This document shows positions 6,519 to 44,252 of a stretch of DNA of 64,000 bases, piece after piece (the first letter of the stretch is position 1; every line of letters begins with the position of its first letter). The DNA lies in NCBI RefSeq assembly GCF_018141525.1, contig NZ_CP064655.1, positions 620,001-684,000 on the forward strand, read 5' to 3'. The notes under the pieces are model-generated. The model ran no database searches and was not told where the DNA came from. It saw nothing but the letters and a program-made list of their open reading frames with translations. Position numbers and translations under genes: made by a program. This DNA comes from Miltoncostaea marina. GTDB taxonomy: Bacteria > Actinomycetota > Thermoleophilia > Miltoncostaeales > Miltoncostaeaceae.

Positions 6519-6674
6519 GCTCCGCGCCCAACTGGAAGGCATGACCGCGCGGCATGCCTCGGCCGTCCCCCGCGGGCCGGTCGTCACGCGGTGGGGGAAG
6601 CGCGTTCGCCGGTGCCCCGGCGTCCTCCGCCCGGTGTCGCGCCGATTGCACCGTGCCCACGAAAGGACGCCGAC

Positions 6675-28260: not shown

Positions 28261-29858
<1,598 letters not shown>

Positions 29859-29916
29859 TCGCCCCCTGCTGCGATCGCGCTCGGGCCGCGCTCACGGGCG
29901 GCCCCGGAGCGGCCCG

Positions 29917-29922
29917 ACGCTA
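29917..29922 (-). promoter_or_regulatory. -10 box TAGCGT upstream of the mutase-carboxylase operon
   Basis: Minus-strand TAGCGT within GGTAGCGTC lies about 58 bases before the mutase GTG. The same hexamer occurs upstream of the first lysyl oxidase gene (31721-31726). Confidence 0.4.
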
Positions 29923-29950
29923 CCACACGCCGGGCCGCCCGGATCCGCTG

Positions 29951-31666
29951 CTAGCCGCGCTTCTTGGGCGTGACGACGAAGGACCGGCGCACGGCCGACG
30001 ACTTGCCCGACGTCAGCTTCGCCGTGACCTTCACGCGCCGCAGGTTGTAGCTGCGCTTCAGCGTGATCTTGCAGGTGACCGTCTTGCCGGCCCGCACGTT
30101 GCGGACGCAGCGGCCGAGCACCGTGCGCTTGAGCGTGGCGGTCACCCGCACCTTGCCGCGCTTCGGGCCCGCGGTGACCTTGGCGACGACGAGCCGCGTG
30201 CCGACCCGGCCCACCCTGAGCCGCTTGATCAGCGGCCGCGGCTTCGTCGTGGGCGCCGGCGCCTGGACCTGGGCCGCGGTCACCTGCACCGTGACCTCGG
30301 CGAACGCCGACGGGTCGTCGTTGCTCGTGGCGCGGATGGTCACCGTCGCCGGCTTGGCCGGGGCGGTGAACAGGCCGCCCGGCGTGATCGTGCCGGCGCT
30401 CGCCGTCCACGTGACGCCACCCGGCCCGTTGCCCACGAGCGCCGAGAGCTGCATCGACAGGCCCGCGACGATCGTCGGCTGCGCGCCGGAGATCGCGACG
30501 GTCGTGATCGGCGCGCCCACCTGCACCGCCACCGCGGCCTGCGGCCGGGTCTGCGGGAAGCGCGGCTCGCTGGAGTCGTACGCCTCGTAGGTGAACGAGT
30601 CGCCGCCCCGCTGGCCCGCGTTCGCGGTGTAGGTGATGGCGCCGCTCGTCAGCACGGAGCCGACGCCGAGGGCGGTGGCGCCCTGGCGCAGGGTGCCGCG
30701 CGCCGGCAGCGAGGTGATGCGGTAGCGGACGGCCCCCGGGTCGCAGTACCGCTTGTCGGCCGGGCTCGGGCTGAAGTCGCCGTCGAAGCACTGGCTCTGG
30801 AAGCGGTCCGCCGACAGGGTGAGGGCGGCGCTCTGGCCCGGCTCGACCCTGCCCACGCTCAGGCCGCGCGGCATGTAGCCGGGGACCACGGCCGGCCGGA
30901 AGGCGTGCCCGTTGTTGCCCTCGTCGCTCTCGGCGATGACGTCGGTCGGGTCGGCGCGGCTGGCGAGCTGGTACTCGCCGGGCGCCACGTTGGAGACGTC
31001 CACCCACTGGTACGACAGCCCGGCGTAGTAGATGTCGCGCCAGCCGGGCGAGATGCCCATCGTCAGCGGGCCGGGGTCGTAGCTGGCGCCCTGCAGGCAG
31101 AAGCGGTTGTTGCCCGAGCTGTACTTCTGCGGCGCGTTGCCGGCCCAGCGCTCGGAGTCCTCCAGGCAGAAGCCCGCCTCGGTCTTCTGGGCGAGCGCCA
31201 CCTGGCGGCTGCGGTCGGGCGTCCACAGCGTGTATTCGGCGGCGTTCTTCAGGTGGTAGTGCTGGTGGCCGTCGGCGACCTCGTGGACCACCACCGGCTG
31301 GCGTCCCCCGTCGGGGACCGCCGTCCCGCCCGAGCGCTGCTCGACGAACGTCATCGCGCCCTGCGAGTTCGGGTTGCGCGCGAAGATCTCGAGCTCGGCC
31401 GGCGCGGTCACGTTGTTGGTGACGAAGCCGTCGAAGCGCATCAGCAGGCGGCCGTCGCGGTACACGTGGGTGGCCGGCGGGCCCGGCGCCTCCGAGATCA
31501 TGTCCGGCAGGTTGGGCGCGCTGGTCACGCTCGTGGCCGCGATCGCCAGCCCCGCCGCCGCAAGGCCCGCCGATCCGAGCAGGCCGAGCACCGCGCGCCG
31601 GCGTGAACGCCGCGTCGCCGGTGCGGTCGCCTGCCCTTCGGGGGTCGCTCGGGAGTCCTCGTTCAT
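29951..31666 (-). CDS. Secreted lysyl oxidase-like copper amine oxidase, paralogue 1
   Basis: Exported protein (571 aa). Twin arginines in SRRRAVLGLLGSAGLAAAG suggest Tat export. The lysyl oxidase domain covers about 55-260: DGHQHYH (132-138) gives the copper-binding His triad. Lys161 before GFCLED and Tyr213 in DIYYAGLSYQW align with the lysine and tyrosine that form the quinone cofactor in animal enzymes; DEGNNGHAF matches the domain end. Cadherin-like (about 300-390) and Big2-like (about 395-465) domains follow. The Lys-rich C terminus has a C-x11-C pair. It probably oxidises lysine side chains or amines outside the cell. First of three paralogues on this strand. Confidence 0.88.
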   Translation of the reverse strand: MNEDSRATPEGQATAPATRRSRRRAVLGLLGSAGLAAAGLAIAATSVTSAPNLPDMISEAPGPPATHVYRDGRLLMRFDGFVTNNVTAPAELEIFARNPNSQGAMTFVEQRSGGTAVPDGGRQPVVVHEVADGHQHYHLKNAAEYTLWTPDRSRQVALAQKTEAGFCLEDSERWAGNAPQKYSSGNNRFCLQGASYDPGPLTMGISPGWRDIYYAGLSYQWVDVSNVAPGEYQLASRADPTDVIAESDEGNNGHAFRPAVVPGYMPRGLSVGRVEPGQSAALTLSADRFQSQCFDGDFSPSPADKRYCDPGAVRYRITSLPARGTLRQGATALGVGSVLTSGAITYTANAGQRGGDSFTYEAYDSSEPRFPQTRPQAAVAVQVGAPITTVAISGAQPTIVAGLSMQLSALVGNGPGGVTWTASAGTITPGGLFTAPAKPATVTIRATSNDDPSAFAEVTVQVTAAQVQAPAPTTKPRPLIKRLRVGRVGTRLVVAKVTAGPKRGKVRVTATLKRTVLGRCVRNVRAGKTVTCKITLKRSYNLRRVKVTAKLTSGKSSAVRRSFVVTPKKRG

Positions 31667-31720
31667 GCGTTCAGTACCTCGGGAGATGTCGTGACGGCAG
31701 GTGGCGGTCCTCGGGGCCCT

Positions 31721-31726
31721 ACGCTA
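31721..31726 (-). promoter_or_regulatory. -10 box TAGCGT upstream of lysyl oxidase 1
   Basis: Minus-strand TAGCGT about 55 bases before the ATG at 31666. The gap 31667-32027 otherwise holds the 21-bp shared element at 31960 and no visible gene. Confidence 0.35.
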
Positions 31727-31959
31727 CGCGGACCGGTGCTCCGGTCGGCCCCCTCGGAGGTGCAGGTGGGGCCTGTCCGGACGGGCCGAATCGCCGACGC
31801 TCCGCCGATCGCGGGGGGCCGCGGTCACCCGGTGCTCGACGCGGTCCTCCATGTCCCCTGCTCCTGTGGGTCGCCGGGCGATGTCGCTGCGCGGTGCGCC
31901 GGGGCGGACGGTATGCGGGGCGGGCCAGCCGGCGCACTCCACCTTCGGGGAGGTCCGCA

Positions 31960-31980
31960 CCTCGACTGTTCGCGCGCGAC
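31960..31980 (-). promoter_or_regulatory. 21-bp element shared with the region upstream of lysyl oxidase 2
   Basis: CCTCGACTGTTCGCGCGCGA plus C is identical to 34840-34860. It is 294 bases upstream of lysyl oxidase 1. The core GCGCGCGAACAG on the minus strand could be part of an alternative promoter or an operator. Confidence 0.5.
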
Positions 31981-32027
31981 ATCGGTGCCGGGAGGCGCTC
32001 GATGGGGCGCCCGCGGCGGGCGGCGCG

Positions 32028-32615
32028 CTACGGCGCGCTGACGGCCCGGGCGACGGCGGAGCGGCCGTCGCCGGCCGCCAGCGTCACGACGATGCGCAGC
32101 GGGGCGTCCGCGAGCCGCGCCGGCGCGCGCAGGACGCAGATCAGCCGGGCGCCAGCCCTGCCGCGGGCCGAGCAGCGGGCGACGGCGCGGCCGCCGCTCG
32201 CCGCCACGACGGACACCGTGCCGTCCAGGCCGGGGACGGTGCGCACCACCAGGGTGCGGCCGCCGCGCGTGATCGAGGGGCGCGTCAGGCGCGGCAGCGC
32301 GGTTGCGCTCACGGAGGCGACGCGGCCCTCATCGTCGCGCAGGGTCACGACGATCCGCAGCGGCAGGTCGCGGAGCTCCTCGGGGGCGCGCAGGCGGCAC
32401 CAGGCCCGGCGGCCGGCGCGCGCGGCCTGCGCGCACTGCGCGACGGTGCGGCCGGCGCGCTGTGCGCGCACGGTCAGCGCCCCGGCCCGCCGGGGTACGG
32501 TGCGCACGATCGTCGTGCGGCCGTTGCGCACGATCGCCGGCGGCGTCAGCGCCGGCGCGGCGTGCTCGGCCACCGGAACCGGCGGCGGTGGTGGCGGCGG
32601 TGGCGCGTGCAGCAT
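32028..32615 (-). CDS. Two-domain Cys-pair protein (duplicated lysyl-oxidase-type C-terminal domain)
   Basis: 195-residue protein consisting of a Pro-rich N terminus and two tandem copies of a domain of about 80 residues. Each copy has GRTxxVRTVP, a Cys, then RAG and a second Cys 12 residues later ([32 protein letters not shown]). The same domain ends lysyl oxidase 3. No signal peptide is visible from this ATG, so the start may be wrong or export may differ. It lies 74 bases past the stop of lysyl oxidase 2 in another frame, with a strong hairpin between. It may be a detached tail of that protein. Function unknown. Confidence 0.55.
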   Translation of the reverse strand: MLHAPPPPPPPPVPVAEHAAPALTPPAIVRNGRTTIVRTVPRRAGALTVRAQRAGRTVAQCAQAARAGRRAWCRLRAPEELRDLPLRIVVTLRDDEGRVASVSATALPRLTRPSITRGGRTLVVRTVPGLDGTVSVVAASGGRAVARCSARGRAGARLICVLRAPARLADAPLRIVVTLAAGDGRSAVARAVSAP

Positions 32616-32645
32616 GGGCCCGCCGAGCGTATGCGCGGCGGGGCC

Positions 32646-32679
32646 CCCGGCGGACCCCCCGCAGGAGGGGGCCGCCGGG
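32646..32679 (-). terminator. Hairpin between lysyl oxidase 2 and the small Cys-pair gene
   Basis: CCCGGCGG and CCGCCGGG, with inner CCCCC/GGGGG, form a strong stem 10 bases past the stop of the lysyl oxidase 2 gene. Confidence 0.5.
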
Positions 32680-32688
32680 TCCGGACGG

Positions 32689-34782
32689 TCAGGACCGGGC
32701 GCCGGGCGCCAGGTTGGCCGCCACGATCGAGCGGTCGGCGAAGTGGCCGCCGTCGAGCCCGGCCTCCAGCTCGGCCACGAGCGCGTTGGAGCGGCGCACC
32801 GCGGCCTGGGCGATCCGCTGGTTGACCCGCAGCTGGGCGGCGGTGAGCGGCAGCGCGCGCGTCCCCCGTCGGCCCGGGGCCGCCACGCGCGTCCTGCTCG
32901 CCGGCGGGCGCGCCACGGAGAGGTCCGCCGCGACCACGTCCAGGCCGGCGGCGAGCTTGCCGCGCTCGACCGCCCCGGGCCGGAGGTCGCCGCCGGTCAG
33001 GCGCCCGTCGAGCCGGGCGCGCAGGCCGTTGAGCCGGCGGATCGCCGCCTGCGACACGCGCTGGTTGATGAGCAGTTGGCGGCCGCTCAGGGTGACCCGC
33101 GCGCCGCGCGCCCGGCGGGGCGCGGCGACGGCCACCGGCCGCGGGTCGGCCGCGGTGGTCGCCGCCGGCGTGGGCCGCGGCGCCGTGCGGATGCCCGGCC
33201 CGAGGGTGCGCGCGGTGATGCCGCCGCCGGCCAGGTCGCGCGCCGCGACGCCCGCGGCCAGCCAGCGCTCGACGCCGCTGGCGCGCCGCACGGCCGCCTG
33301 CGAGATGCGCTGGTTGATGAGCAGCTGCCGCGCCGACCGGGTGACCCCGCCGCCGCCGCCGCGGCCGATCGGCGCGGGGGCCTGCACCTGGGGCGTCGTG
33401 ACGCGGATCGCCACCTCGGCGGCGGCCGAGGGGTCGTCCCTGCTGGTGGCGCGGACGGTCACGGTGCCGGCCGTGGCCGGCGCGGTGAACAGGCCGTCCG
33501 GGGTGATGGATCCGGCGGAGGCCGTCCACGTGACGCCCGACGGGCCGTTCGTCACGATCGCGGAGAGCTGCAAGGACAGGCCCGCCACGATGCTCGGCTG
33601 GGCGCCGGAGATCGCGACCGTCGTGACGGGCGCGCCGACCTGGATCGCCACGGCCGCCTGCGGCCGGACGCGCGGGAAGCCCGGCTCACCGGCGTCGAAG
33701 GCCTCGTAGTGGAACACGTCGCCGCCGCGCTGACCGGGGTTCGCGGTGTAGCTCAGCTCGCCGGCGGTGAGCACGTCGCCCGCGCCGATCACCCGGTCGC
33801 CCTGGCGCAGCTCCCCGCGCTGCGGCGCCGTGGTGATGCGGAAGCGCAGCGGGCCGGGGTCGCAGTACCCGCGGTCCTCGGGGTCGCCGCGCGTGAAGCA
33901 CTCGCTGACGAACTCCTCGGCCTGCAGCGTCACGCGGGCGGCCCGGCCGGGGTCGACCCGGCCGACGTCGAGCCCCTTCGGCAGGAAGCCCGGCACGACG
34001 GCCGGGGTGAACGCGTGCCCGTTGTTCGACTCGTCGCTCTCGGCGATGACGTCGGTCGGGTCGGCCTGATTGGCGAGCTCGTAGCGACCCGGCGGGGTGC
34101 TCGACACGTCGACCCACTGGTACGGCAGGCCGGCGTCGTAGACGTCGCGCCAGCCCGGCGTGATGCCCATGACCAGCGGCCCGCCGCGGGGCCCCTGGCC
34201 CGGGTCGCTCTGCAGGCAGAAGTCGTTGGTCCCGGAGCTGTACCGCGCGCCCAGGCCGCCGCCGAGGTACTTCGAGTCCTCGAGGCAGAACCCGACCTCG
34301 GTCTTCTGGGCGAGCGCGACCTGCTGCCGGCCGTCGGGCGTCCAGAGGCTGTACTCGCCGGCGTTCTTCAGGTGGTAGTGGCGGTGGCCGTCGGCCACCT
34401 CGAAGATCACGACCGGCCTGCGCCCGGAGGGGTGGGTGACGACCGCGTCGTCCGGCCCCACCCGCTGCCGCACGACGCGCATGGCGCCCTGGGCGTCGGG
34501 CTGGTCGGCGAAGATCTCGAGCTCCGCCGGCGCGCCGGGCCGGTTGGTGACGTACCCGTCGAAGCGCATCAGGAGCCGCTCGCCGTCCCGATCGACGTAG
34601 ACGTGGGTCGTCGGGTCGCCGGGCGGCTCGGAGATCAGGTCGGGCAGGTTCGGGGCGCTGGTCACGGTCGCGGCGGCGACGGCGAGCGCAGCCGCGGCCA
34701 GCCCGGCGGAGCCGAGCAGCCCGAGGACCGCGCGCCGGCGCGGGCGCCGGGCGGCGTGGCGGGGATCTGCGGAAGGGGTCAT
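32689..34782 (-). CDS. Secreted lysyl oxidase-like protein, paralogue 2, with three 'INQRISQAAVRR' repeats
   Basis: Exported protein (697 aa) closely similar to paralogue 1 over about 460 residues. It has the twin-Arg signal RRPRRRAVLGLLGSAGLAAA, copper motif DGHRHYH, Lys before VGFCLED, Tyr in DVYDAGLPYQW, cadherin-like and Big2-like domains. The C terminus differs: instead of the Cys-pair domain it has three repeats (ARQLLINQRISQAAVRRASG; GRQLLINQRVSQAAIRRLNG; AAQLRVNQRIAQAAVRRSNA). They are interleaved with GDLRPGAVERGKLAAGL-like segments reminiscent of trimeric fibre repeats. Thus the tail was exchanged while the enzyme core was kept. The ATG follows a short AGGG site. Active-site residues look complete. 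Confidence 0.88.
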   Translation of the reverse strand: MTPSADPRHAARRPRRRAVLGLLGSAGLAAAALAVAAATVTSAPNLPDLISEPPGDPTTHVYVDRDGERLLMRFDGYVTNRPGAPAELEIFADQPDAQGAMRVVRQRVGPDDAVVTHPSGRRPVVIFEVADGHRHYHLKNAGEYSLWTPDGRQQVALAQKTEVGFCLEDSKYLGGGLGARYSSGTNDFCLQSDPGQGPRGGPLVMGITPGWRDVYDAGLPYQWVDVSSTPPGRYELANQADPTDVIAESDESNNGHAFTPAVVPGFLPKGLDVGRVDPGRAARVTLQAEEFVSECFTRGDPEDRGYCDPGPLRFRITTAPQRGELRQGDRVIGAGDVLTAGELSYTANPGQRGGDVFHYEAFDAGEPGFPRVRPQAAVAIQVGAPVTTVAISGAQPSIVAGLSLQLSAIVTNGPSGVTWTASAGSITPDGLFTAPATAGTVTVRATSRDDPSAAAEVAIRVTTPQVQAPAPIGRGGGGGVTRSARQLLINQRISQAAVRRASGVERWLAAGVAARDLAGGGITARTLGPGIRTAPRPTPAATTAADPRPVAVAAPRRARGARVTLSGRQLLINQRVSQAAIRRLNGLRARLDGRLTGGDLRPGAVERGKLAAGLDVVAADLSVARPPASRTRVAAPGRRGTRALPLTAAQLRVNQRIAQAAVRRSNALVAELEAGLDGGHFADRSIVAANLAPGARS

Positions 34783-34839
34783 GCGGCGACCCTAGGAAGC
34801 GCCCGGCGCCCCTCCAACCGGCCGTTCGGGCGGGCCGGC

Positions 34840-34860
34840 CCTCGACTGTTCGCGCGCGAC
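34840..34860 (-). promoter_or_regulatory. 21-bp element upstream of lysyl oxidase 2
   Basis: Identical to 31960-31980 and 58 bases before the ATG at 34782. Its conservation in front of two paralogues suggests shared control, or a remnant of the gene duplication. Confidence 0.5.
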
Positions 34861-34897
34861 GGGTGGTACGGATTCTGTGAGCGGGCGCCCCCGGCGC

Positions 34898-36961
34898 TCA
34901 GCGGATGTCGTATCCGAGCGCCGCAAGCGCGCGCAGGGCCGCCTGCAGCCGTGCGTCGGCGCGGGCGACCTCCCGGCGCGCCCCGTCGAACCCGGCCCCG
35001 CGCTCGGCGCGCGCGGCCGCGGCAAGCCTCGTGAACGCGTCGCCGCCGCCGGCCACGGCGTCCACCAGCCGGCGGTGGGCGGCCTCGCGCGAGGGGCCGG
35101 GGTCCACCGCGCGCAGCGCGCGCGCCGCGGCGGCGTGGGCGCGCGCCACGCCGTCCGCGGCGGCCGCCTGGGGGCCCGGCAGGCGGGCGCCGCGCAGGTT
35201 GGCGAGGCCGCCGGCGCGCGCCCGGCGCAGAAGCCTCATCGCCTCGCCGACCGCCCGCGCGTACGAGGGGGCGGGGTCGAGCGCGTAGACGTGCCCGTCG
35301 CCCGGGTCGAGCGCGGCCGCCGCGGCGTCGCAGGCGGCCGCGACGGCGCCGGCGTCGGCGGGCGAGGCGTGGCACGCGAGCGTCGCGACGCCGTCGTCGG
35401 TGGGGACGGCGTAGACGGTGAGCTCGCCGGCGACTCCGTCGGCGTCAAGGCCGCGATGGCGCAGCGCCCGGATGCCGCCCAGGTCGACCGCCTCGCCCCG
35501 CGGCTGCGCGGGCAGCCGCCTGAGCAGCGCCGGCGGCAGCAGCGTGGCGCCGCGCCCCCCCGAGCGGCCGACCGCGATGACGCCGGAGCCGTCGGGGGGC
35601 GCGTAGGCCGCGCCGCCGGCGAGCGCGACGCCGGGGATCCCGGCCGCCGCCGGCGCCCAGTCGCCCGGCAGCTCGGTCGACACCCGGTCGGCCTCCACGG
35701 CCCGGGCGCCCGGGGCGGGCGGCGGGTCGCCGCCGCCGGACCCGCCCGCGAGGAACCCGCCCGCGGCGGCGGCCGCCACGATGACCGCGGCGGCGAGCAG
35801 CGCCGCCACGCGCCGGCGGCGCTGCGGGCGCCCAGCGGGGTCGTCGCCGGCGGGCGCCATCACCGTCGCGGGGGGCCCGTCCCAGACGAGCGGCGGCGGG
35901 GCCGGCTCGCGGCGCGGCGGGGGCGCCGGGGGTCCGGCGACGGCCGCCGGCTCCGAGACGGCCCGAGGGTCCGCGACCGGATCCCGCTCCGCGACCGGCT
36001 CCGGATCGGCGACGGGCTCCGGCTCGGCCGGCTCCTCCGGCCCCTCGGCGGGCGCGATGACCGTGGGCGCCGCCGTCCGGCGCGGCGGCCGCCGCGGGGG
36101 CAGGTCGCGGGTCGCCGACAGCGCGGCGGCCAGCTCTGCGGCGTCCGCGAAGCGGTCCGCCGGGTCCTTCCGCATGCCGCGCTCGATGATCGCCGCGGCC
36201 TCGGCGGGCAGGGCCGGCGCCAGGCGGAGGGAGTCGGGGACGGGGGCGGCGATGTGCTGCATCGCGATGGCGCGCACGCCCTCGTCCGAGGTGTACGGCA
36301 GCCGCCCGGTGCTGGCCTCGAACAGCACGACGCACAGGCTGTAGAGGTCGGCCCGCCCGGTCGCGGGGCGCCCCTCGGCCTGCTCGGGCGAGATGTACTC
36401 GGGGGTGCCGAGCATCAGCCCGGCGCGGGTCGTCCCGGCCGCGCCGGCGAGGTGCGCGATGCCGAAGTCGGCGACCCGGGCGGTGCCGTCCTCCTCCATC
36501 AGCACGTTGGCGGGCTTGATGTCGCGGTGCACGACGCCCGCGTCGTGCGCCGCCGCCAGCGCGCTGCAGACCTCGATGCCGATCCGCGCGCACCGCGCCC
36601 AGGGCAGCGGGGCCTCCCGGTCCAGCACGGCCTGCAGCGACCGGCCGCGCACGAGCTCCAGGATCAGGAACAGGCCGCCGTCCGGCGGGCGCACCATGTC
36701 GTACAGCCCGATGATATTGGGGTGGCGCAGGCGGGCGAGGGCGCGCGCCTCCCGCTCGAATCGCTCGACGAACACGGGGTCGCCCGCCAGCTCGGGCAGC
36801 AGCGACTTGACCGCGACCTCGCGGTGGAGCTCGCGGTCGAAGGCCCGGTAGACGCTGCCCATCGCGCCGTCGCCGAGCAGCTCGCGCAGCTCGTACCGGC
36901 CGACGAGGGCGCTCCCCAGCGTCACCCGCCGGGGGGCGCCGCGGCGCAGGCGCGGCGGCAC
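34898..36961 (-). CDS. Membrane Ser/Thr protein kinase with extracellular domain
   Basis: Predicted receptor-type kinase (687 aa). The kinase domain covers about 20-280: LLGDGAMGSVYRAFD (Gly loop), AVKSLLPEL with Lys52, HRDIKPANVL (catalytic loop, about 147), ADFGIAHL, and LGTPEYISPEQ (activation segment end). A Pro/Glu-rich linker (about 300-375) leads to one membrane helix (about 384-405) and an external domain of about 280 residues without PASTA motifs, Arg/Ala-rich and not recognised. GTG at 36961 is the listed start; GTG at residue 13 (VTLGSALVGRYEL) is also plausible. It follows the FHA-protease gene after 40 bases; FHA domains bind phosphothreonine, so the two may work together. Confidence 0.88.
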   Translation of the reverse strand: MPPRLRRGAPRRVTLGSALVGRYELRELLGDGAMGSVYRAFDRELHREVAVKSLLPELAGDPVFVERFEREARALARLRHPNIIGLYDMVRPPDGGLFLILELVRGRSLQAVLDREAPLPWARCARIGIEVCSALAAAHDAGVVHRDIKPANVLMEEDGTARVADFGIAHLAGAAGTTRAGLMLGTPEYISPEQAEGRPATGRADLYSLCVVLFEASTGRLPYTSDEGVRAIAMQHIAAPVPDSLRLAPALPAEAAAIIERGMRKDPADRFADAAELAAALSATRDLPPRRPPRRTAAPTVIAPAEGPEEPAEPEPVADPEPVAERDPVADPRAVSEPAAVAGPPAPPPRREPAPPPLVWDGPPATVMAPAGDDPAGRPQRRRRVAALLAAAVIVAAAAAGGFLAGGSGGGDPPPAPGARAVEADRVSTELPGDWAPAAAGIPGVALAGGAAYAPPDGSGVIAVGRSGGRGATLLPPALLRRLPAQPRGEAVDLGGIRALRHRGLDADGVAGELTVYAVPTDDGVATLACHASPADAGAVAAACDAAAAALDPGDGHVYALDPAPSYARAVGEAMRLLRRARAGGLANLRGARLPGPQAAAADGVARAHAAAARALRAVDPGPSREAAHRRLVDAVAGGGDAFTRLAAAARAERGAGFDGARREVARADARLQAALRALAALGYDIR

Positions 36962-37001
36962 CGCTATCGCCGCCGCCGCGCCGCGGTCCCGCGCGCCCCG
37001 G

Positions 37002-38432
37002 TCACTTCAGCGACAGCCGGACCCGCTCGGCCGGGCCGCCGGTCAGCGCGTAGTCCCCGTCCGGCGTCTCCTCCATGGGGAGCATCCGGGCGATGAACGT
37101 CTCGCGCCGCTCCACGTCGCCGATCGCGTCACAGTAGTCCGCGAGGCGCGCCTCGATGGGTTCGGGGTCCTGGCCGGGCCGCTCGATGGCGGTCAGCAGC
37201 ATCGGCGCCTCCACGCCCGCCGCCGCGGCCGGCGTGCCGGGCACCACGTCGGTGACGATCGCGCCCTGCTGGCCGGGCACGAACTCGAGGCCGAGGCCGG
37301 TCCAGCCGATGGAGACGCCGCGCCGCAGCTGGGCGACGATCTGCTTCACGTGGTCGACCCCGATCGCGTAGTTCTGCGAGCCGCGCGCACCGGTGGCCAC
37401 GCCGACCAGTTCGCCGTCGGCGTTCACCAGCGGGCCGCCCGAGTTGCCGCGGTTGAAGGTCGTGTCGGTGAGGATCAGGTTCGGCAGGTCTGGCACGTCG
37501 AATCGGAGCTGGTCGTTGGAGAACGAGGTGCGCACGTCCGAGACGGTGCCGGTGGTCTGCACGTAGTCGATGCGGTCCGACTCGGTGCCCGGGAAGCCGA
37601 GCGCCGTGACCCGGTCGCCCTGGCGCAGCTCGGACTGGCTCGACATCGGCAGCGTGCGCAGCCCCTCGGGCGCGATCCGCAGCACGGCCAGGTCCTCGCA
37701 CACGGCCGCGCCGACCAGCTCGGCGTCACGCTCCTCGAGGGGGGTGTCCTCGGCGCCCTCCGCGGGCTCGCCGGAGGCCACCGACACGGTGTAGAGCGTG
37801 CCCGCGTTCACGACGTGGTTGTTGGTCACCACGAGGCCGCGCTCGGCGTCGAGCACCCAGCCCGAGCCGGTGGCGGCGTGCCCGGCGCCGTCGGCAGCGT
37901 TCACGACCACCACGGAGGGGCGCGCGTCCTCGACCACGTCGGCCAGGGCGCCGTCGTCCCAGATCACCCCGCCCAGCCAGAGGCCGAGGATCGCGAGGCC
38001 CGTCAGGGCGACCACGCCGCCGGCGATGCCCGCGAGCAGCCCGCCGGGGGCGCGGGACGGGCCATCGTCGGGGTCGTCGGGACGCGGCTCCACCACCCGG
38101 CCCGCCGCCGCACCGACCTGCACCACGGTGCCGGCCGCGGGCCCGGTGCGGGAGGTGACGATCTCCGTCTCGCCGATGAGGACCGCCTCGCCGCCCTCGA
38201 GCACGACCGGCGCGTGGAGGATGCGGCCGTCGACCCGGGTGCCGTTCGACGACCCGAGATCCTCCAGCTCGGCGCGCCCGTCCTCGAGTGGGGTCAGCGC
38301 GGCGTGCTGCCGGGAGACGAGCGGGTCGTCGAGGACGAGGTCGCAGTCCTCGTCGCGGCCGATCAGGAAGCGCTCGCCGGTCACCCGGACGTCGCGCTCC
38401 TCGCCGTCGGCGGTGTGAATCCTCAGCCACAT
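37002..38432 (-). CDS. FHA-TM-HtrA-like serine protease with PDZ domain
   Basis: 476-residue membrane protein. Residues 1-95 form an FHA domain (FLIGRDEDCDLVLDDPLVSR; GSSNGTRVDG), which binds phosphothreonine in the cytoplasm. A membrane helix (about 128-152) separates it from an external trypsin-like protease with a complete triad: His in NNHVVNAG (about 206), Asp in EDLAVLRI (about 246), Ser in RGNSGGPLV (about 331). A PDZ-like region follows (GLEFVPGQQGAIVTDVVPGT). Start at the second ATG, because AGGAGG lies nine bases upstream of it; the first ATG (38441) would sit inside that site. Co-directional with the Ser/Thr kinase, its likely phosphorylating partner. Confidence 0.88.
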   Translation of the reverse strand: MWLRIHTADGEERDVRVTGERFLIGRDEDCDLVLDDPLVSRQHAALTPLEDGRAELEDLGSSNGTRVDGRILHAPVVLEGGEAVLIGETEIVTSRTGPAAGTVVQVGAAAGRVVEPRPDDPDDGPSRAPGGLLAGIAGGVVALTGLAILGLWLGGVIWDDGALADVVEDARPSVVVVNAADGAGHAATGSGWVLDAERGLVVTNNHVVNAGTLYTVSVASGEPAEGAEDTPLEERDAELVGAAVCEDLAVLRIAPEGLRTLPMSSQSELRQGDRVTALGFPGTESDRIDYVQTTGTVSDVRTSFSNDQLRFDVPDLPNLILTDTTFNRGNSGGPLVNADGELVGVATGARGSQNYAIGVDHVKQIVAQLRRGVSIGWTGLGLEFVPGQQGAIVTDVVPGTPAAAAGVEAPMLLTAIERPGQDPEPIEARLADYCDAIGDVERRETFIARMLPMEETPDGDYALTGGPAERVRLSLK

Positions 38433-38505
38433 GTGGCGCATCCTCCTGGCGATGCTGCCGCCCGCCCGAGCGGCGCGAACGGGGATGGGGTGGGGTGGTG
38501 TGCGG

Positions 38506-38883
38506 TCAGCGGAAGTCCTCGAAGCCGTCGTCCGGGGCGGGCGCCGGGGTGGGGGCGGGGGCCGGTGCCGGGGTGGGCGCGGGGGCCGGTGCCGGGGTGG
38601 GCGCCGGCGCGCTCGGCCCGGGCGCGGCGGGCGCGGGGGCGGGCGGCGCGGGCTCGGGCTCGGGCGTGGTGCGCATGGCGGGCAGGCGCCCGAGCGGCTC
38701 GACCGCGGCGATCCGCTGGGCGGGCCGCGCCACCACCGCGGCCGCGGCGGCCGGGCCGGGCGCCGCGACGGGCGCGGGCGCGTCGTCCCGCGTCGCGCGG
38801 CCCGCCGCGAAGGCGGCCCCGAACGCGACGATCGCGGCGGCCGCCACGGCGAGCGGCAGGCGGGCCGCCGGCGTCAGCCGCAC
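38506..38883 (-). CDS. Small membrane-anchored Pro/Ala-rich protein
   Basis: 125-residue protein with an N-terminal hydrophobic helix (LPLAVAAAAIVAFGAAFAAG) and a long low-complexity tail (PAPAPTPAPAPAPTPAP). The GTG start overlaps the stop of the upstream secreted protein gene by ten bases, supporting translation. A TonB-like or wall-spanning spacer role is imaginable, but no domain is recognised. The tail is encoded by imperfect 30-bp tandem repeats near 38550-38610, so its length may vary between strains. Confidence 0.6.
   Translation of the reverse strand: MRLTPAARLPLAVAAAAIVAFGAAFAAGRATRDDAPAPVAAPGPAAAAAVVARPAQRIAAVEPLGRLPAMRTTPEPEPAPPAPAPAAPGPSAPAPTPAPAPAPTPAPAPAPTPAPAPDDGFEDFR
38550..38610. 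repeat. Tandem 30-bp repeats encoding a Pro-Ala tail
   Basis: The unit GGGGGCCGGTGCCGGGGTGG plus GCGC occurs about twice, with a third partial copy. It encodes alternating Ala-Pro-Thr-Pro residues in frame. Confidence 0.6.
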
Positions 38884-40304
38884 GCCCGGATCCTGGTGCC
38901 GACGAGCTCGCACGTCTTCGTGGCCGGGCCGTTGCGCGTGATCTTGAGACGGTGATAGCTGCCGATCGCGCCGGGGCGCGTGATGCGGAAGTCGATGCGG
39001 GTGCCGACAGCGAGCGGCCGCCGGCCGAGCAGCGTCTTGAGCTTCGGCGCGGCGGTGCGGAGGCGGATCGTGCGGCCGTCGGCGCACGCGCGCCGGGGGC
39101 TGCACGTGATCTGCACCCGCACCCGGCCGCTCACGTCCTTGCGCAGGCGGCCGTCGCCGCCGGTCACCCGGACGCTGAGGAAGGCCCCCGGCTTGACGCG
39201 GCACCAGCGAACCATCGAGCGCACCACGCGGCAGCGCACGAACGGCTCGAGCCGCGACGAGATGACCGGCACGACGGGCGGGGCGGGCGGCGCGCCGGTC
39301 ACCGGCACGGCCGGCACGGCCGGCGTGGGCGCCGGGTCACGGGGCGTAACGGGGACGATGTCGATCGGGATCTCGACGGGCGGCGGAGGCGGGGGCGGCG
39401 GCGCCCCGGTGTTGCGGACCGTGACCGTGATCGAGGCGACCGCGCGGTTGTTGGCCTCGTCGAAGGCCTCCGCACGGAGGGTGTGCTGACCCTCGGTGAG
39501 TTTGCGCGTGTCGAGCTCGCAGCCCCAGGGCGCGAAGCGCTGGATCTCGTGGAGCACGTCGTCGACGAAGATCTCGACGCGGTTGACCCGCACGTTGTCC
39601 GACGCGACGACCTCGCATCGCTTCGCGCCGTTGGAGGCCACCTCGCTGTAGACGCCGGAGATGACCGCGCCGCCCGCCGGGGCGCTCCAGCGGACGCTGG
39701 GCCGGACCTCGTCGGGGGCCGGCGGCGGCGGCTGGAAGCCATCGAAGAAGAAGCCGGCGATCTCGTCCGCCCCCGGGAGCGCCCCGTACGTGACCCGGGT
39801 GGGCGACACGCAGGTCACCAGCCGCCCGGCGAGCTCGGGTCGCTCGACGGTCACCGTCAGCAGGTCGCCGGCGAGGTTGAAGAACCCGACCCCCCGGTCG
39901 TCGTAGTCGGTGCGCGGCAGGCGGTTCGTGGTGACCTGGCGGACGCTGTCGCCGGACGGGCCGCGCACCACTTCGATGCGGACCTCGAGGTCGCTGCCCC
40001 TGCCCCAGTCGCAGTAGCCGGCGGCGGATGCCGAGCCCGTGTTGAGCACGACGACGAACTCCGTGTGGCGGCCGTTCTGGACGACCGGGACGGGCTGGTG
40101 GAACCGCACCTGGGTGGTGAGCCGCCCGGTGTCGGGGTCGTGCGCGATGGTGAGCTGTGCCGCATCCGGCCGGGAGTAGCCATCCGCCGAGCCGACGTCG
40201 CCGGCGGGGTCGAGGAGCGTGCCCGAGCGCGGCGCGCCGACCGCCGTCCCCGCCAGGACGAGCAGCAGGATCAGCGATGGGACGAGCCGGCGCGCGATGC
40301 GCAT
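38874..40304 (-). CDS. Secreted protein with Ig-like (Big) domain and Cys-rich C terminus
   Basis: Exported protein (476 aa) with signal peptide RLVPSLILLLVLAGTAVGA. Residues about 30-205 form an unrecognised beta-rich domain (DPAGDVGSADGYSRPDAAQL) like those found in bacterial secreted 'DOMON/CARDB-like' modules. Residues about 215-300 resemble a Big-type Ig domain (VRVNRVEIFVDDVLHEIQRF; GQHTLRAEAFDEANNRAVAS). A Pro-rich linker leads to a basic C-terminal domain with six Cys. The ATG has GGAGG eight bases upstream. Role unknown; it is surrounded by lysyl oxidases and other secreted proteins and may be part of the same matrix. Confidence 0.8.
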   Translation of the reverse strand: MRIARRLVPSLILLLVLAGTAVGAPRSGTLLDPAGDVGSADGYSRPDAAQLTIAHDPDTGRLTTQVRFHQPVPVVQNGRHTEFVVVLNTGSASAAGYCDWGRGSDLEVRIEVVRGPSGDSVRQVTTNRLPRTDYDDRGVGFFNLAGDLLTVTVERPELAGRLVTCVSPTRVTYGALPGADEIAGFFFDGFQPPPPAPDEVRPSVRWSAPAGGAVISGVYSEVASNGAKRCEVVASDNVRVNRVEIFVDDVLHEIQRFAPWGCELDTRKLTEGQHTLRAEAFDEANNRAVASITVTVRNTGAPPPPPPPPVEIPIDIVPVTPRDPAPTPAVPAVPVTGAPPAPPVVPVISSRLEPFVRCRVVRSMVRWCRVKPGAFLSVRVTGGDGRLRKDVSGRVRVQITCSPRRACADGRTIRLRTAAPKLKTLLGRRPLAVGTRIDFRITRPGAIGSYHRLKITRNGPATKTCELVGTRIRACG

Positions 40305-40430
40305 GGGTGCTTCCTCCGGGGCCGGTGGGGGGCGGGGCGCTCACCCCGCCGGGGGGCGAGCGTATGTCCCGCCACGGTTTCGTAAACCTGGTCGCTCGGG
40401 GGGTTCTCCGCGACGTCCGGCCGCGGCCCG

Positions 40431-42029
40431 CTAGGCGCGGGGCCGCGCGAGCAGTCGGACGGACGCGCGCCGGCCGCCGGTGCCCTTGAGGCCGACGGCG
40501 ACGCGGACCGTGCTGCGGGCGAGGCGGCGCGGCAGCACCAGCTTGCAGGCCACCCTGCGCCCGGCCCTCGCGCCCACCCTGCACCGCGCCACGGCGCGGC
40601 CGTTGCGGATGGCGCTGACGACCAGGCGCCCGTCGACCCGGGCGGTCGTGCGCACGGCGATGATGCGGCCGCGGCGCGTGACCGACGGCCGCACGAGCAG
40701 GCCGTTGCCGCCGGCCACGGCCGCCCCGCCGGTGGGCAGCCCCGGCGCGCCGACCTTCGGCGGCACCGGCGCGATTGCGATCTGGACCTGCGCGGAGACG
40801 GACGGGTCGTCGGCGCTCGTGGCGCGGATCGTCGCCGTGCCCCCGGCCGGCGGCGTGGCCGGGGCCACGTAGAGCCCGCCGGGCGAGATCGCGCCGGCGC
40901 TCGCGCTCCAGGTGACTGCGCCCGCGGGGGACAGGACGGCGCCGAGCTGGACCGAGGTGCCCGCCACCATGGACGCCGGCGCGCCGGAGATCTGCAGGGT
41001 CGGCGCGGTGCGCTGCCCGACCTGGATCGTCACGGGCGCCGTCGCCGGGTTGCGGGGGAACCCGGCGACCTCGCCGCTGCCGCTGTGCGCCGTGAAGGTG
41101 AAGGAGTCGGGCCCCGAGTAGCGCGGGTCCGGCGTGTACAGCACCTGGCCGCCGGTGATCTCCTGCCCCACCGCCACGTTGAGCGTGCCGTGGGCGGGGG
41201 CCGACGCGACCCGGAACCGCCTGGCGCCGGCCGCGCCGCCGCCGTGGGTGAGGGCGGCGAGCGTGATCGGCCGCGCCGACGAGCCGCCCGGCACCTGCAC
41301 GGGCCCGACCGGCTGCGCGACGTGGCCGGGGATCGTGAACGCCGTGTAGGCCGAGCCGTTGTTGCCCTCGTTCGACTCGCGGATCACGTTGTTCGGGTCG
41401 GAGACCGCCGACAGGCGGTACGGGCCGGGCGCCGTGCGGGAGACGTCGACCCACTGGAAGGTGAGTCCGGCGTCGTAGACGTCGCGCCATCCGGCGGACA
41501 CGCCCATGGACAGCTCGGTGGCCCACGGCTTGCCCTGCTGGCAGAACGCCTGGGGCGAGTACGCCTGCTCGTCGCGCACCGGGGCGCTGCTCGGCGTCCA
41601 CTCGATGTCGTACAGGCAGAAGCCGACCTTCTGCCCCGGGGCGACCTCGACGGTGCTGTCCGCCCGCACCAGCGAGTAGTACATCGCGTTCATCAGGTGG
41701 AAGTGGTCGTGACCGTCGGCGGTCTCGTAGGTCACCCGCGGCGCGCCGACCTCCGTCCAGGTGGAGCCGTCCCAGGTGCGCTGCTTCATGCCGCCGCCGA
41801 CGCTCGGGTCGCCGGTGATGTCGAGCGGGCCGGTGCCGACGTTGGTCACGTAGCCGTCGAAGCGCAGCAGCAGCCGGCCGCCGTTGGCCTCGAGGTACGC
41901 GTTGCGCGGCGGATCGGAGCGCAGATCCGGCATCCCGCTGTTGGGGGCACCGAAGCCGATGATCGGCAGGGCGGCGGCCGCGGAGGCCGCGACGGCGAGG
42001 AGGGGGAGGATGGTTCTGCGTGTCGGCAT
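40431..42029 (-). CDS. Secreted lysyl oxidase-like copper amine oxidase, paralogue 3
   Basis: Exported protein (532 aa), the most diverged of the three paralogues. The signal TRRTILPLLAVAASAAAALP has a Tat-like TRRxIL motif. Enzyme residues are retained: DGHDHFH, Lys in PGQKVGFCLYD, and Tyr in DVYDAGLTFQW, then ESNEGNNGSAY. Cadherin-like and Big2-like domains follow, ending with one Cys-pair domain (VARCRVGARAGRRVACKLVL) that closely matches both copies in the small gene at 32028-32615. It likely oxidises lysines or amines extracellularly. Separated from paralogue 2 by four genes, so it may be an older duplicate. Confidence 0.87.
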   Translation of the reverse strand: MPTRRTILPLLAVAASAAAALPIIGFGAPNSGMPDLRSDPPRNAYLEANGGRLLLRFDGYVTNVGTGPLDITGDPSVGGGMKQRTWDGSTWTEVGAPRVTYETADGHDHFHLMNAMYYSLVRADSTVEVAPGQKVGFCLYDIEWTPSSAPVRDEQAYSPQAFCQQGKPWATELSMGVSAGWRDVYDAGLTFQWVDVSRTAPGPYRLSAVSDPNNVIRESNEGNNGSAYTAFTIPGHVAQPVGPVQVPGGSSARPITLAALTHGGGAAGARRFRVASAPAHGTLNVAVGQEITGGQVLYTPDPRYSGPDSFTFTAHSGSGEVAGFPRNPATAPVTIQVGQRTAPTLQISGAPASMVAGTSVQLGAVLSPAGAVTWSASAGAISPGGLYVAPATPPAGGTATIRATSADDPSVSAQVQIAIAPVPPKVGAPGLPTGGAAVAGGNGLLVRPSVTRRGRIIAVRTTARVDGRLVVSAIRNGRAVARCRVGARAGRRVACKLVLPRRLARSTVRVAVGLKGTGGRRASVRLLARPRA

Positions 42030-42098
42030 TGGGCGAACCTATGAGAACCGACGATCGGCGGGCCACTAGACGAACGGGGGGGTCGGCCCCGCCGCGGG

Positions 42099-42104
42099 TA
42101 TCAT
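42099..42104 (+). promoter_or_regulatory. -10 box TATCAT giving a leaderless moaD transcript
   Basis: TATCAT ends six bases before the moaD ATG, so transcription would start at the initiation codon. No ribosome site is present. Confidence 0.5.
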
Positions 42105-42110
42105 CCGGCG

Positions 42111-42362
42111 ATGGCCGAGATCCGGGTCACCGTCCGCCTGTTCGCCTCGCTGCGCGAGGCCGCCGGCACCGGCTCGCTCGACATGCGCCTGCCGCCGGCC
42201 ACCCCCGTCGGGGCGGTGTGGAGCCACCTGCCCGACGCCCTGCGCGCGGGCGCGCCGCCCGAGGGGCTGCGCTACGCGCTGAACCACGTGTGGACCCTGC
42301 CCGGCGCCCCCCTGCGCGAGGGCGACGAGGTGGCGCTGGTGCTGCCGGTGTCGGGCGGATGA
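42111..42362 (+). CDS. moaD: Molybdopterin synthase small subunit (MoaD)
   Basis: 83-residue ubiquitin-fold protein. RVTVRLFASLREAAGTGSLD is the family N terminus and it ends in VLPVSGG, the Gly-Gly tail that is thiocarboxylated and supplies sulfur to cyclic pyranopterin monophosphate. Length is typical. The stop overlaps the moaE start (ATGA). Transcription probably begins at the ATG. Confidence 0.92.
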   Translation: MAEIRVTVRLFASLREAAGTGSLDMRLPPATPVGAVWSHLPDALRAGAPPEGLRYALNHVWTLPGAPLREGDEVALVLPVSGG

Positions 42363-42811
42363 TCGGGCTCAACGAGGGGCCCATCGACCCCGCGGCGGTC
42401 CTCGCCGCGGTCGCCGACCCGGACCACGGCGGCACCGCGCTGTTCGTGGGCACCACCCGCCGCGAGGCGGGCGAGCGCGAGGTGGCCGAGCTGTTCTACG
42501 AGGCCTACGAGGAGCTCGCCCTGGCCGAGATGCAGGCGATCGCCGAGGAGGCCCGCGAGGCCTACGGCGCGAAGGTCGCCGTGCTGCACCGCGTCGGCGC
42601 GGTGGCCGTGGGCGAGCCGAGCGTCGCGGTGGCGGCCTCGGCCGGCCACCGGCCGGCGGCGTTCGCGGCATGCCGCCACGTCATCGACGAGCTCAAGGCG
42701 CGGGCGCCCATCTGGAAGCAGGCCGTGCGCGCCGACGGCGCGGCGGCCTGGATGGACGGCCGCGCCGTCGCACCCGTCCCCGAGGCCGCGAGGAGGCCCG
42801 ATGCCCGCTGA
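42359..42811 (+). CDS. moaE: Molybdopterin synthase catalytic subunit (MoaE)
   Basis: 150-residue catalytic partner of MoaD. FVGTTRREAGEREVAELFYE, VLHRVGAVAVGEPSVAVAAS, HRPAAFAACRHVIDELKARA and PIWKQAV are the conserved blocks, with the active-site Lys in IWKQ and the basic pocket from CRHVIDELK. It makes molybdopterin from the cyclic precursor. It overlaps moaD by four bases and the next gene by eleven. Other moa genes are not in the window. Confidence 0.95.
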   Translation: MIGLNEGPIDPAAVLAAVADPDHGGTALFVGTTRREAGEREVAELFYEAYEELALAEMQAIAEEAREAYGAKVAVLHRVGAVAVGEPSVAVAASAGHRPAAFAACRHVIDELKARAPIWKQAVRADGAAAWMDGRAVAPVPEAARRPDAR

Positions 42812-43757: not shown

Positions 43758-44252
43758 TCAGCGCCGCCGCGGGAAGACGTCCAGCGTCAGCGAGGCCACC
43801 CGGTCGAGGATCAGCACGCCGTCGAGGTGGTCGATCTCGTGGAGGATCGCCCGGGCCTCGAAGCCGGCCGACTCGATGCGCCGCCGCGCCCCGTCGAGGC
43901 CGGTGGCCTCCACGGTCACCCGGGTCGCGCGGCGCACGTTGGCCGTGATGTCGGGCAGCGACAGGCACCCCTCGCGGCCGATCTCCTCGCCGTCGGCCTC
44001 GAGCACGACCGGGTCGATGAGCCACAGCGGCCCCTGGGCGTCGGGCGCCTTGCGGTGGCCGGTGCAGTCGACCCAGGCCATCCGCCACATCTCGCCGATC
44101 TGGGGCGCGGCGATGCCGACGGTGCGCGGGAACGACCGCGCCGTCTCCACCAGGTCCCCGGCCAGGCGCAGGGCCGCGGGGCCGGGATCGCCGACGGGGG
44201 CGCAGCGCTCCTTGAGCCGGCGGTCGGGGTAGCGCAGGACCTCGCGGATCAC
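43758..44252 (-). CDS. def: Peptide deformylase
   Basis: Removes the N-formyl group from nascent proteins (164 aa). The three signature motifs are complete: TVGIAAPQIG (motif 1, usually GxGLAAxQ), EGCLSLPD (motif 2 with metal Cys), and HEIDHLDG (motif 3 with metal His residues and catalytic Glu). Length is typical. It lies downstream of the ACT-domain gene (49 bases) on the same strand. Confidence 0.95.
   Translation of the reverse strand: MIREVLRYPDRRLKERCAPVGDPGPAALRLAGDLVETARSFPRTVGIAAPQIGEMWRMAWVDCTGHRKAPDAQGPLWLIDPVVLEADGEEIGREGCLSLPDITANVRRATRVTVEATGLDGARRRIESAGFEARAILHEIDHLDGVLILDRVASLTLDVFPRRR

Follow-up and report, generated by a model that had tools for sequence, protein, structure and literature searches.

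Why should one bacterium keep three nearby genes for secreted lysyl oxidases (LOX) that share an enzyme core and end in different tails, and how did those tails come to be attached? The question is raised by Miltoncostaea marina, whose 3.37 Mb single-contig genome includes the 64-kb window analysed here (the whole stretch G000:C1:620001-684000), and within it by three minus-strand genes that I will call LOX1, LOX2 and LOX3 (Table 1). An earlier note, written from the letters of this window, had described three paralogues with the copper and cofactor residues of animal lysyl oxidase, arisen by triplication with exchange of tails. As I will argue, the exchange can be demonstrated for LOX2, while the history of the cluster is a different one, and the tail that was exchanged, built of three repeats named after their INQRIS motif, belongs to a module found on many other proteins of the same lineage.

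Cofactor residues of the three enzymes

All three proteins score above the curated PF01186 cut-off of 20.4 bits (LOX1 50.4, LOX2 39.1 and LOX3 48.5 bits), and each possesses the DGHxHxH copper motif, a Lys before GFC and a Tyr within a DxY...QW segment, just as the earlier note had read them. Its further proposal, that this Lys and Tyr are equivalent to the residues forming lysine tyrosylquinone (LTQ) in the animal enzymes, was borne out when the alignments were made: LOX3 matches human LOXL2 (5ze3) directly (phmmer, 1.2e-6), its Lys134 and Tyr185 aligning in register with the two residues of the LTQ, and a profile of 43 relatives reaches the same structure at E = 4.7e-22, again with both residues in register. 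The AlphaFold model of LOX1 (mean predicted local distance difference test, pLDDT, 90.1) superposes on 5ze3_A with a Z of 14.3 and 2.5 Å over 170 aligned residues at 28% identity; this match came first only in a second look with VIA-align, Foldseek's own list consisting mostly of unrelated proteins rich in immunoglobulin (Ig) domains. Across the family alignment (58 rows after removal of duplicates, two of them fragments, hence 57 with letters at each site) 56 of 57 rows retain the LTQ Lys (L120 has Asp), all 57 the LTQ Tyr and 53 the full set of three copper His (exceptions L120, L113, L119 and L133), and both Lys and Tyr are invariant across alignment A3, for which 43 of the 55 worked-out references were taken. 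By sequence and modelled fold, LOX1-3 are thus shown to be homologous members of the exported copper/LTQ lysyl oxidase family, with predicted activity. The source genome has six PF01186 places in total; no genome in a sample of 296 from the phylum has more, and 34 of the 296 contain the family.

Could the three proteins nevertheless be catalytically dead adhesins that merely retain a LOX fold? The four family rows that have lost the His motif, one of them (L120) together with the Lys, lend the idea some substance, but LOX1-3 keep all of these residues and the Lys and Tyr do not vary in the 43 rows of A3, so that I consider it very unlikely. The four rows are worth recording in their own right, as L119 (G014:C98), L133 (G050:C1) and L113 (G009:C85) have lost copper His and kept Lys and Tyr, and L120 (G014:C8) has lost both copper His and Lys, making all four candidate pseudoenzymes.

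What had been taken for a single arrangement, a Lys before GFCL, proved to have two forms; the Lys is present throughout, but it stands five residues from the Phe of FC in LOX1 and LOX2 and three residues from it in LOX3 and human LOXL2, which amounts to a two-residue insertion. The two extra residues occur in 6 of 57 rows (LOX1, LOX2, two relatives from G001, a genome of the same genus, and two rows from G003), and since these rows sit in two separate supported clades, the insertion probably had two independent origins, with the Lys kept.

A recombinant origin for LOX2

The two ends of LOX2 have different closest relatives. On the core tree (55 rows, duplicate loci and fragments removed), LOX1 and LOX2 are sisters (support 100/97), followed by the LOX1 of G001 (100/96) and then by a further LOX of G001 at locus L103 (100/100), and LOX3 is placed elsewhere, in another and older LOX lineage. 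The LOX1 and LOX2 pair returns when the Ig modules are added to the core (99/97), a pairing of the LOX2 body with that of L103 is rejected (log-likelihood 49 lower, approximately unbiased test p = 0.0001), and joining LOX1 to its G001 counterpart without LOX2 is also disfavoured (p = 0.02). On the tree of 42 INQRIS tails (alignment A2, long-form tails, with short-form tails of spacing about 45 excluded), the tail of LOX2 is instead sister to that of the L103 LOX (row L076; 100/99), and these two tails are 63% identical and collinear across all three repeats and their linkers. Identity in 60-residue windows agrees, with LOX2 resembling LOX1 at 0.57-0.82 up to about residue 455 and, beyond it, resembling L103 at 0.50-0.72 over all three repeats and linkers. 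Because the body tree contradicts the tail tree, LOX2 is a recombinant, and these comparisons show a body of the LOX1 lineage carrying an INQRIS tail descended from another LOX; the tail exchange suspected in the earlier note is real for this gene. The direction could be either of two, with the tail moved onto a copy of LOX1 or the body of a LOX-INQRIS gene overwritten.

It could be argued that LOX2 gained its tail independently, from an INQRIS protein that was not a LOX, with no exchange between LOX genes at all, since INQRIS tails are spread over many proteins and the core tree keeps apart the three LOX rows that bear one. The close and collinear sisterhood of the LOX2 tail with a LOX tail, among 42 candidates, already disfavours that route, and I hold it to be improbable.

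A single triplication of one ancestor, the history first proposed for these genes, is ruled out by the trees and by the synteny of G001. There, LOX3, the Big_7 protein, the FHA protease, the kinase and LOX1 follow one another in the same order, with neither LOX2 nor the small open reading frame (ORF) ORF195, and beside the block stand equivalents of the genes that flank the cluster in the window (42020-42811 and 43758-44252, by eye moaE- and def-like candidates, respectively). On this sequence evidence, LOX1 and LOX2 are recent sisters and LOX3 belongs to an older lineage, within a genome whose LOX genes number six rather than three.

Cys-pair tails and the INQRIS module

The three proteins share one layout, in which two Ig-like modules (Big_9- and Big_2-like matches, mostly under the Pfam cut-offs) separate the LOX core from the tail, and their C termini differ as had been noted, with a Cys-pair domain in LOX1 and LOX3 and three INQRIS repeats in LOX2. 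The Cys-pair tail of LOX1 is strongly basic and, in its AlphaFold model, matches 7wg3_K (Z 12.1, 2.1 Å over 92 residues), pointing to an FN3-like fold; the same domain is also found on proteins other than LOX. Elsewhere in the window, a NosD/right-handed beta-helix protein at 6591-8330 (+) bears one or two such domains, relatives of the LOX1 and LOX3 tails. Among further LOX relatives, L135 has PKD and CBM_4_9 modules and others have no tail.

AlphaFold folds the INQRIS tail of LOX2 as one confident domain (pLDDT 90.8, predicted template modelling score 0.85), in which a long helix and then a short pattern of strands occur three times over. None of the Pfam, NCBIfam and PHROG models covers it, the nearest approach in Pfam being one sub-cut-off match (E 0.017) close to repeat 1 of L038; an INQRIS profile has no match among PDB sequences (best E 0.07); Foldseek returned nothing with E < 3 from PDB or BFVD, in a single-chain search that would miss a homotrimer of separate chains; and VIA-align, with only one chain to look at, reported no match. 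Searches of the PMC literature gave nothing that looked related to the INQRIS motif, and no title on surface proteins for Miltoncostaea, among the matches listed. The tail looks like an undescribed, confidently folded and lineage-specific module, as far as a model and these searches can tell.

Its distribution is both narrow and dense. Among 299 sampled genomes of the class, INQRIS units are confined to the window's family, where 28 of 42 have them against none of the 257 others, and named records with INQRIS are mostly Thermoleophilia metagenome-assembled genomes (MAGs), several labelled Miltoncostaeales; one triple INQRIS carrier, L157, lies on a contig labelled Gemmatimonadota, a label that may reflect misbinning or transfer. 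A search of the source genome with the LOX2 tail gave 31 matches and revealed, besides LOX2, eight apparently exported proteins with three C-terminal copies, one (L137) with two and two small proteins with a single copy; a single-copy INQRIS protein of 218 aa is encoded around G000:C1:3199.3-3200.0 kb. Another triple-tail protein, with no Pfam domain, is encoded in the window itself at 12671-14362 (+). The bodies that Pfam can name include GH39/cellulase-like, proprotein P-domain, SpoIID and sorbosone dehydrogenase proteins in the source genome and trypsin, NHL, FG-GAP, OmpA/PKD and PD40 proteins in its relatives, many bodies having no Pfam match. In G014 and at L155, L165 and L167 (records of MAG isolate Ww508), very many INQRIS units are packed into a single genome (70 in G014) and several carriers follow one another in tandem, their bodies mostly unrecognised. 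Among 37 genomes of the family, 23 have both LOX and INQRIS, 4 LOX only, 4 INQRIS only and 6 neither (p = 0.012, a value that ignores relatedness and genome size).

Copy number has a marked preference for three. When carriers were made unique by their last 60 residues, 76 remained, 74 of them with a complete end, and of the latter 45 have three copies, 25 have one (including three fragments from frameshifted genes, and a few long proteins possibly with degenerate further copies) and four have two, namely two with a gap of two periods, one frameshifted and L137. Thirteen aligned one-copy rows have in common a helix unit close to the N terminus and a globular end, and most also have a TTAQIANxAVTxAKL-like spacer. 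Of 40 long-form tails, 30 have a Cys both in the linker and in repeat 1, 9 have neither and 1 has a single one of the two (Fisher p = 4e-8, relatedness uncorrected), a co-occurrence in the sequences that suggests a disulfide between them; the LOX2 tail has lost both and the L103 LOX tail retains both. The INQRIS tail of a further LOX of the source genome (L005/L134) is frameshifted at G000:C1:1137410-1137824, with repeat 2 in another frame directly after repeat 1, as a result of either tail decay or a sequence indel.

The INQRIS unit presumably resembles the trimeric spacer repeats of phage tail fibres, with which it seems to share a DGAVTAAKL-like segment beside a helix and the recurring number three. 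It differs from them in placing three units in one chain, and neither PHROGs (three INQRIS tails tested) nor Foldseek against BFVD and PDB gave a match; a viral origin, for which viral-contig relatives are also missing, was rejected. One of the two single-copy proteins has a weak PHROG tail-protein match (E = 0.00046) in its C-terminal part.

What might such a module do? Its C-terminal position and the absence of wall-binding homology would suit a signal for export or folding, or an oligomerisation domain, rather than an anchor. Nevertheless, the carriers also have N-terminal signal-like segments, so that a second export signal seems unneeded, and a confident folded domain together with exported single-copy proteins that have their own globular end fits a structural role better; the signal or oligomerisation proposal is a minority option that I would still take seriously. 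The role I prefer for the tail is that of a lineage-specific display module, a single folding unit of three equivalent repeats. A bolder version, speculative and on balance doubtful, would make INQRIS a new surface-display system of the window's family, in which small exported one-unit proteins form homotrimers on the surface and tails of exactly three units, as covalent copies of such a trimer, cap that scaffold or dock into it; a LOX would have been moved onto the scaffold by recombination in the linker, giving a bacterial extracellular matrix its own Lys cross-linker.

Proposed function, genomic setting and comparison with known systems

The reading that I consider the likely one, though well short of certain, is that LOX1-3 are three exported copper/LTQ amine oxidases, each with a core, two Ig-like modules and an exchangeable tail. 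Their substrates would be Lys (or other primary amine) side chains in polymers of the surface or matrix, oxidised to aldehydes that go on to cross-link, and the INQRIS tail and the cationic, FN3-like tails of Cys-pair type would hold one chemistry at different places on the cell surface. Since the INQRIS tail is shared with glycosidase-, SpoIID- and sorbosone-dehydrogenase-like and other exported proteins, LOX2 would sit where those proteins sit, and use of this tail across the genome makes different targeting by tails more plausible. Viewed in this way, LOX2 seems, from its sequence history, a possible cross-linking enzyme relocated to a new site at the cell surface.

Several observations pull the other way. 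The kinase and protease that neighbour these genes are not known to be linked with LOX; the insertion after the Lys of LOX1 and LOX2 could spoil LTQ formation; INQRIS has no match to a wall-binding family; and the Lys richness of the Cys-pair tails is not special to LOX, at 8.9% in LOX tails and 6.2% in Cys-pair domains on other proteins (1.9% in LOX cores), with outliers of 2.2% in the LOX3 tail and 0% in ORF195. As these non-LOX domains are also Lys-rich, the notion that the tail supplies a built-in substrate was dropped. Furthermore, the tested archaeal LOX oxidises small amines besides peptides (PMC6452851).

This last point feeds the rival proposal that the LOX proteins scavenge amines or produce peroxide, for nitrogen supply or for defence against amines or aminoglycosides, with no cross-linking and with tails that only keep them near the cell. 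The archaeal enzyme accepts taurine, glycine, aminoglycosides and other primary amines (PMC6452851), and such broad specificity leaves both cross-linking and amine scavenging possible. Still, six paralogues, several with Ig, PKD, CBM or FN3-like modules, seem to resemble matrix proteins more than free metabolic enzymes, and I regard scavenging as unlikely but not negligible.

With regard to export, the earlier note had proposed twin-arginine (Tat) signals suited to folded copper enzymes. An RR pair does precede the hydrophobic stretch in LOX1, LOX2 and LOX3, and the source genome has two TatC genes; of 56 upstream regions of related LOX, however, only 13 show the pattern, and in G001 the orthologue of LOX3 has KR in its place. 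Conservation of the motif does not support twin-arginine export as a conserved trait; with two TatC genes present, Tat export of the three proteins is possible and unproven. Three SCO1-like proteins are encoded in the genome, one of them just downstream of the L005/L134 LOX, less than 1 kb away and on the other strand.

The cluster is also less compact than a run of three LOX genes would suggest, for although the three minus-strand ORFs are there, four further genes lie within the span: ORF195, a Ser/Thr kinase, an FHA-trypsin protease (with PDZ matches under the Pfam cut-off) and a Big_7 protein (Table 1). ORF195 has neither a LOX core nor an obvious signal peptide, its GC content at third codon positions is 0.95, and it looks like a stranded tail cassette or a small gene. 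A frameshift fusing it to LOX2 was considered and rejected, as ORF195 is in another frame, 74 bases downstream, its domains are of LOX3 type rather than LOX1 type and nothing supports a programmed shift. The kinase stands beside the FHA-domain protease (34898-38441, -) and the two are retained between LOX genes in two genomes; a regulatory link of this pair to the matrix genes is conceivable. A promoter and terminator scan over 29800-42200 found nothing clearly beyond chance.

Table 1. Features of the LOX cluster, in window coordinates
Feature	Position	Strand	Basis
LOX1 (571 amino acids, aa): secreted lysyl oxidase, LOX core, two Ig-like modules, Cys-pair (FN3-like) tail	29951-31666	-	PF01186, AlphaFold
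Cys-pair tail of LOX1, FN3-like, 14% Lys	29960-30238	-	own profile, composition, fold match
LOX1 LTQ Tyr213 codon	31028-31030	-	alignment
LOX1 LTQ Lys161 codon, two-residue insertion after	31184-31186	-	alignment
LOX1 copper HxHxH	31253-31267	-	alignment
ORF195 (195 aa): two LOX3-type Cys-pair domains, Pro-rich start	32028-32615	-	own profile
LOX2 (697 aa): lysyl oxidase chimera, LOX1-like body, INQRIS tail	32689-34782	-	PF01186, trees
INQRIS triple-repeat tail of LOX2	32692-33372	-	AlphaFold, tail tree
VQAPAP linker common to LOX1 and LOX2, approximate boundary of LOX1-like body and INQRIS tail (residue 466)	33365-33387	-	identity windows
LOX2 LTQ Tyr215 codon	34138-34140	-	alignment
LOX2 LTQ Lys160 codon	34303-34305	-	alignment
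LOX2 copper HxHxH	34372-34386	-	alignment
Ser/Thr protein kinase, conserved cluster member	34898-36961	-	PF00069 157 bits; same site in G001, 58% identical
FHA and trypsin-like protease, conserved cluster member	37002-38441	-	PF00498, PF13365; 68% in G001
Secreted Big_7 protein, conserved cluster member	38874-40304	-	PF17957; 57% in G001
LOX3 (532 aa): lysyl oxidase of older lineage, Cys-pair tail	40431-42029	-	PF01186, phmmer, trees
Cys-pair tail of LOX3, Arg-rich	40434-40700	-	own profile, composition
LOX3 LTQ Tyr185 codon	41475-41477	-	alignment, LOXL2 match
LOX3 LTQ Lys134 codon, standard spacing	41628-41630	-	alignment, LOXL2 match
LOX3 copper HxHxH	41697-41711	-	alignment

How, then, do these enzymes compare with what has been described? 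With the human LOXL2 catalytic domain (5ZE3) and PF01186 they have in common the copper HxHxH, the LTQ Lys and Tyr in register and the predicted fold, whereas the Lys of LOX1 and LOX2 is followed by a two-residue insertion, and all three have Ig-like plus FN3-like or INQRIS C-terminal modules in place of SRCR domains. The survey of Grau-Bove et al. 2015 (PMC4448552) describes the cofactor residues, K320 and Y355 in human LOX, as widely conserved and the first His of the animal copper talon as missing in bacterial LOX, and it is missing in LOX1-3 as well. Prokaryotic LOX of the same family and with the same cofactor residues, including those of Actinobacteria, are known from that survey and from the work on the archaeon Haloterrigena turkmenica, whose LOX is an active amine oxidase that requires Cu2+ (PMC6452851); the latter also mentions a Sorangium LOX with a Cys-rich C-terminal domain, and both leave the function of LOX in bacteria an open question. 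All but three of the prokaryotic LOX surveyed consist of the LOX domain alone, in contrast to the long tails, six paralogues and demonstrated tail swap found here.

Taken alone, the LOX genes would add members of unusual architecture to a family already known; it is the tail swap, and the undescribed INQRIS module beneath it, that lift the finding. A LOX placed on a tail common to many exported proteins provides a concrete set of candidate neighbours and substrates, and two separate clades in which two residues are inserted between the LTQ Lys and the conserved Cys offer natural variants for the unsolved problem of LTQ formation (Lys and Tyr stand 16.6 Å apart in the LOXL2 precursor; PMC9694262). 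If INQRIS did prove to be a display system, the analogy would be with animal collagen and lysyl oxidase, a matrix with an enzymatic Lys cross-linker.

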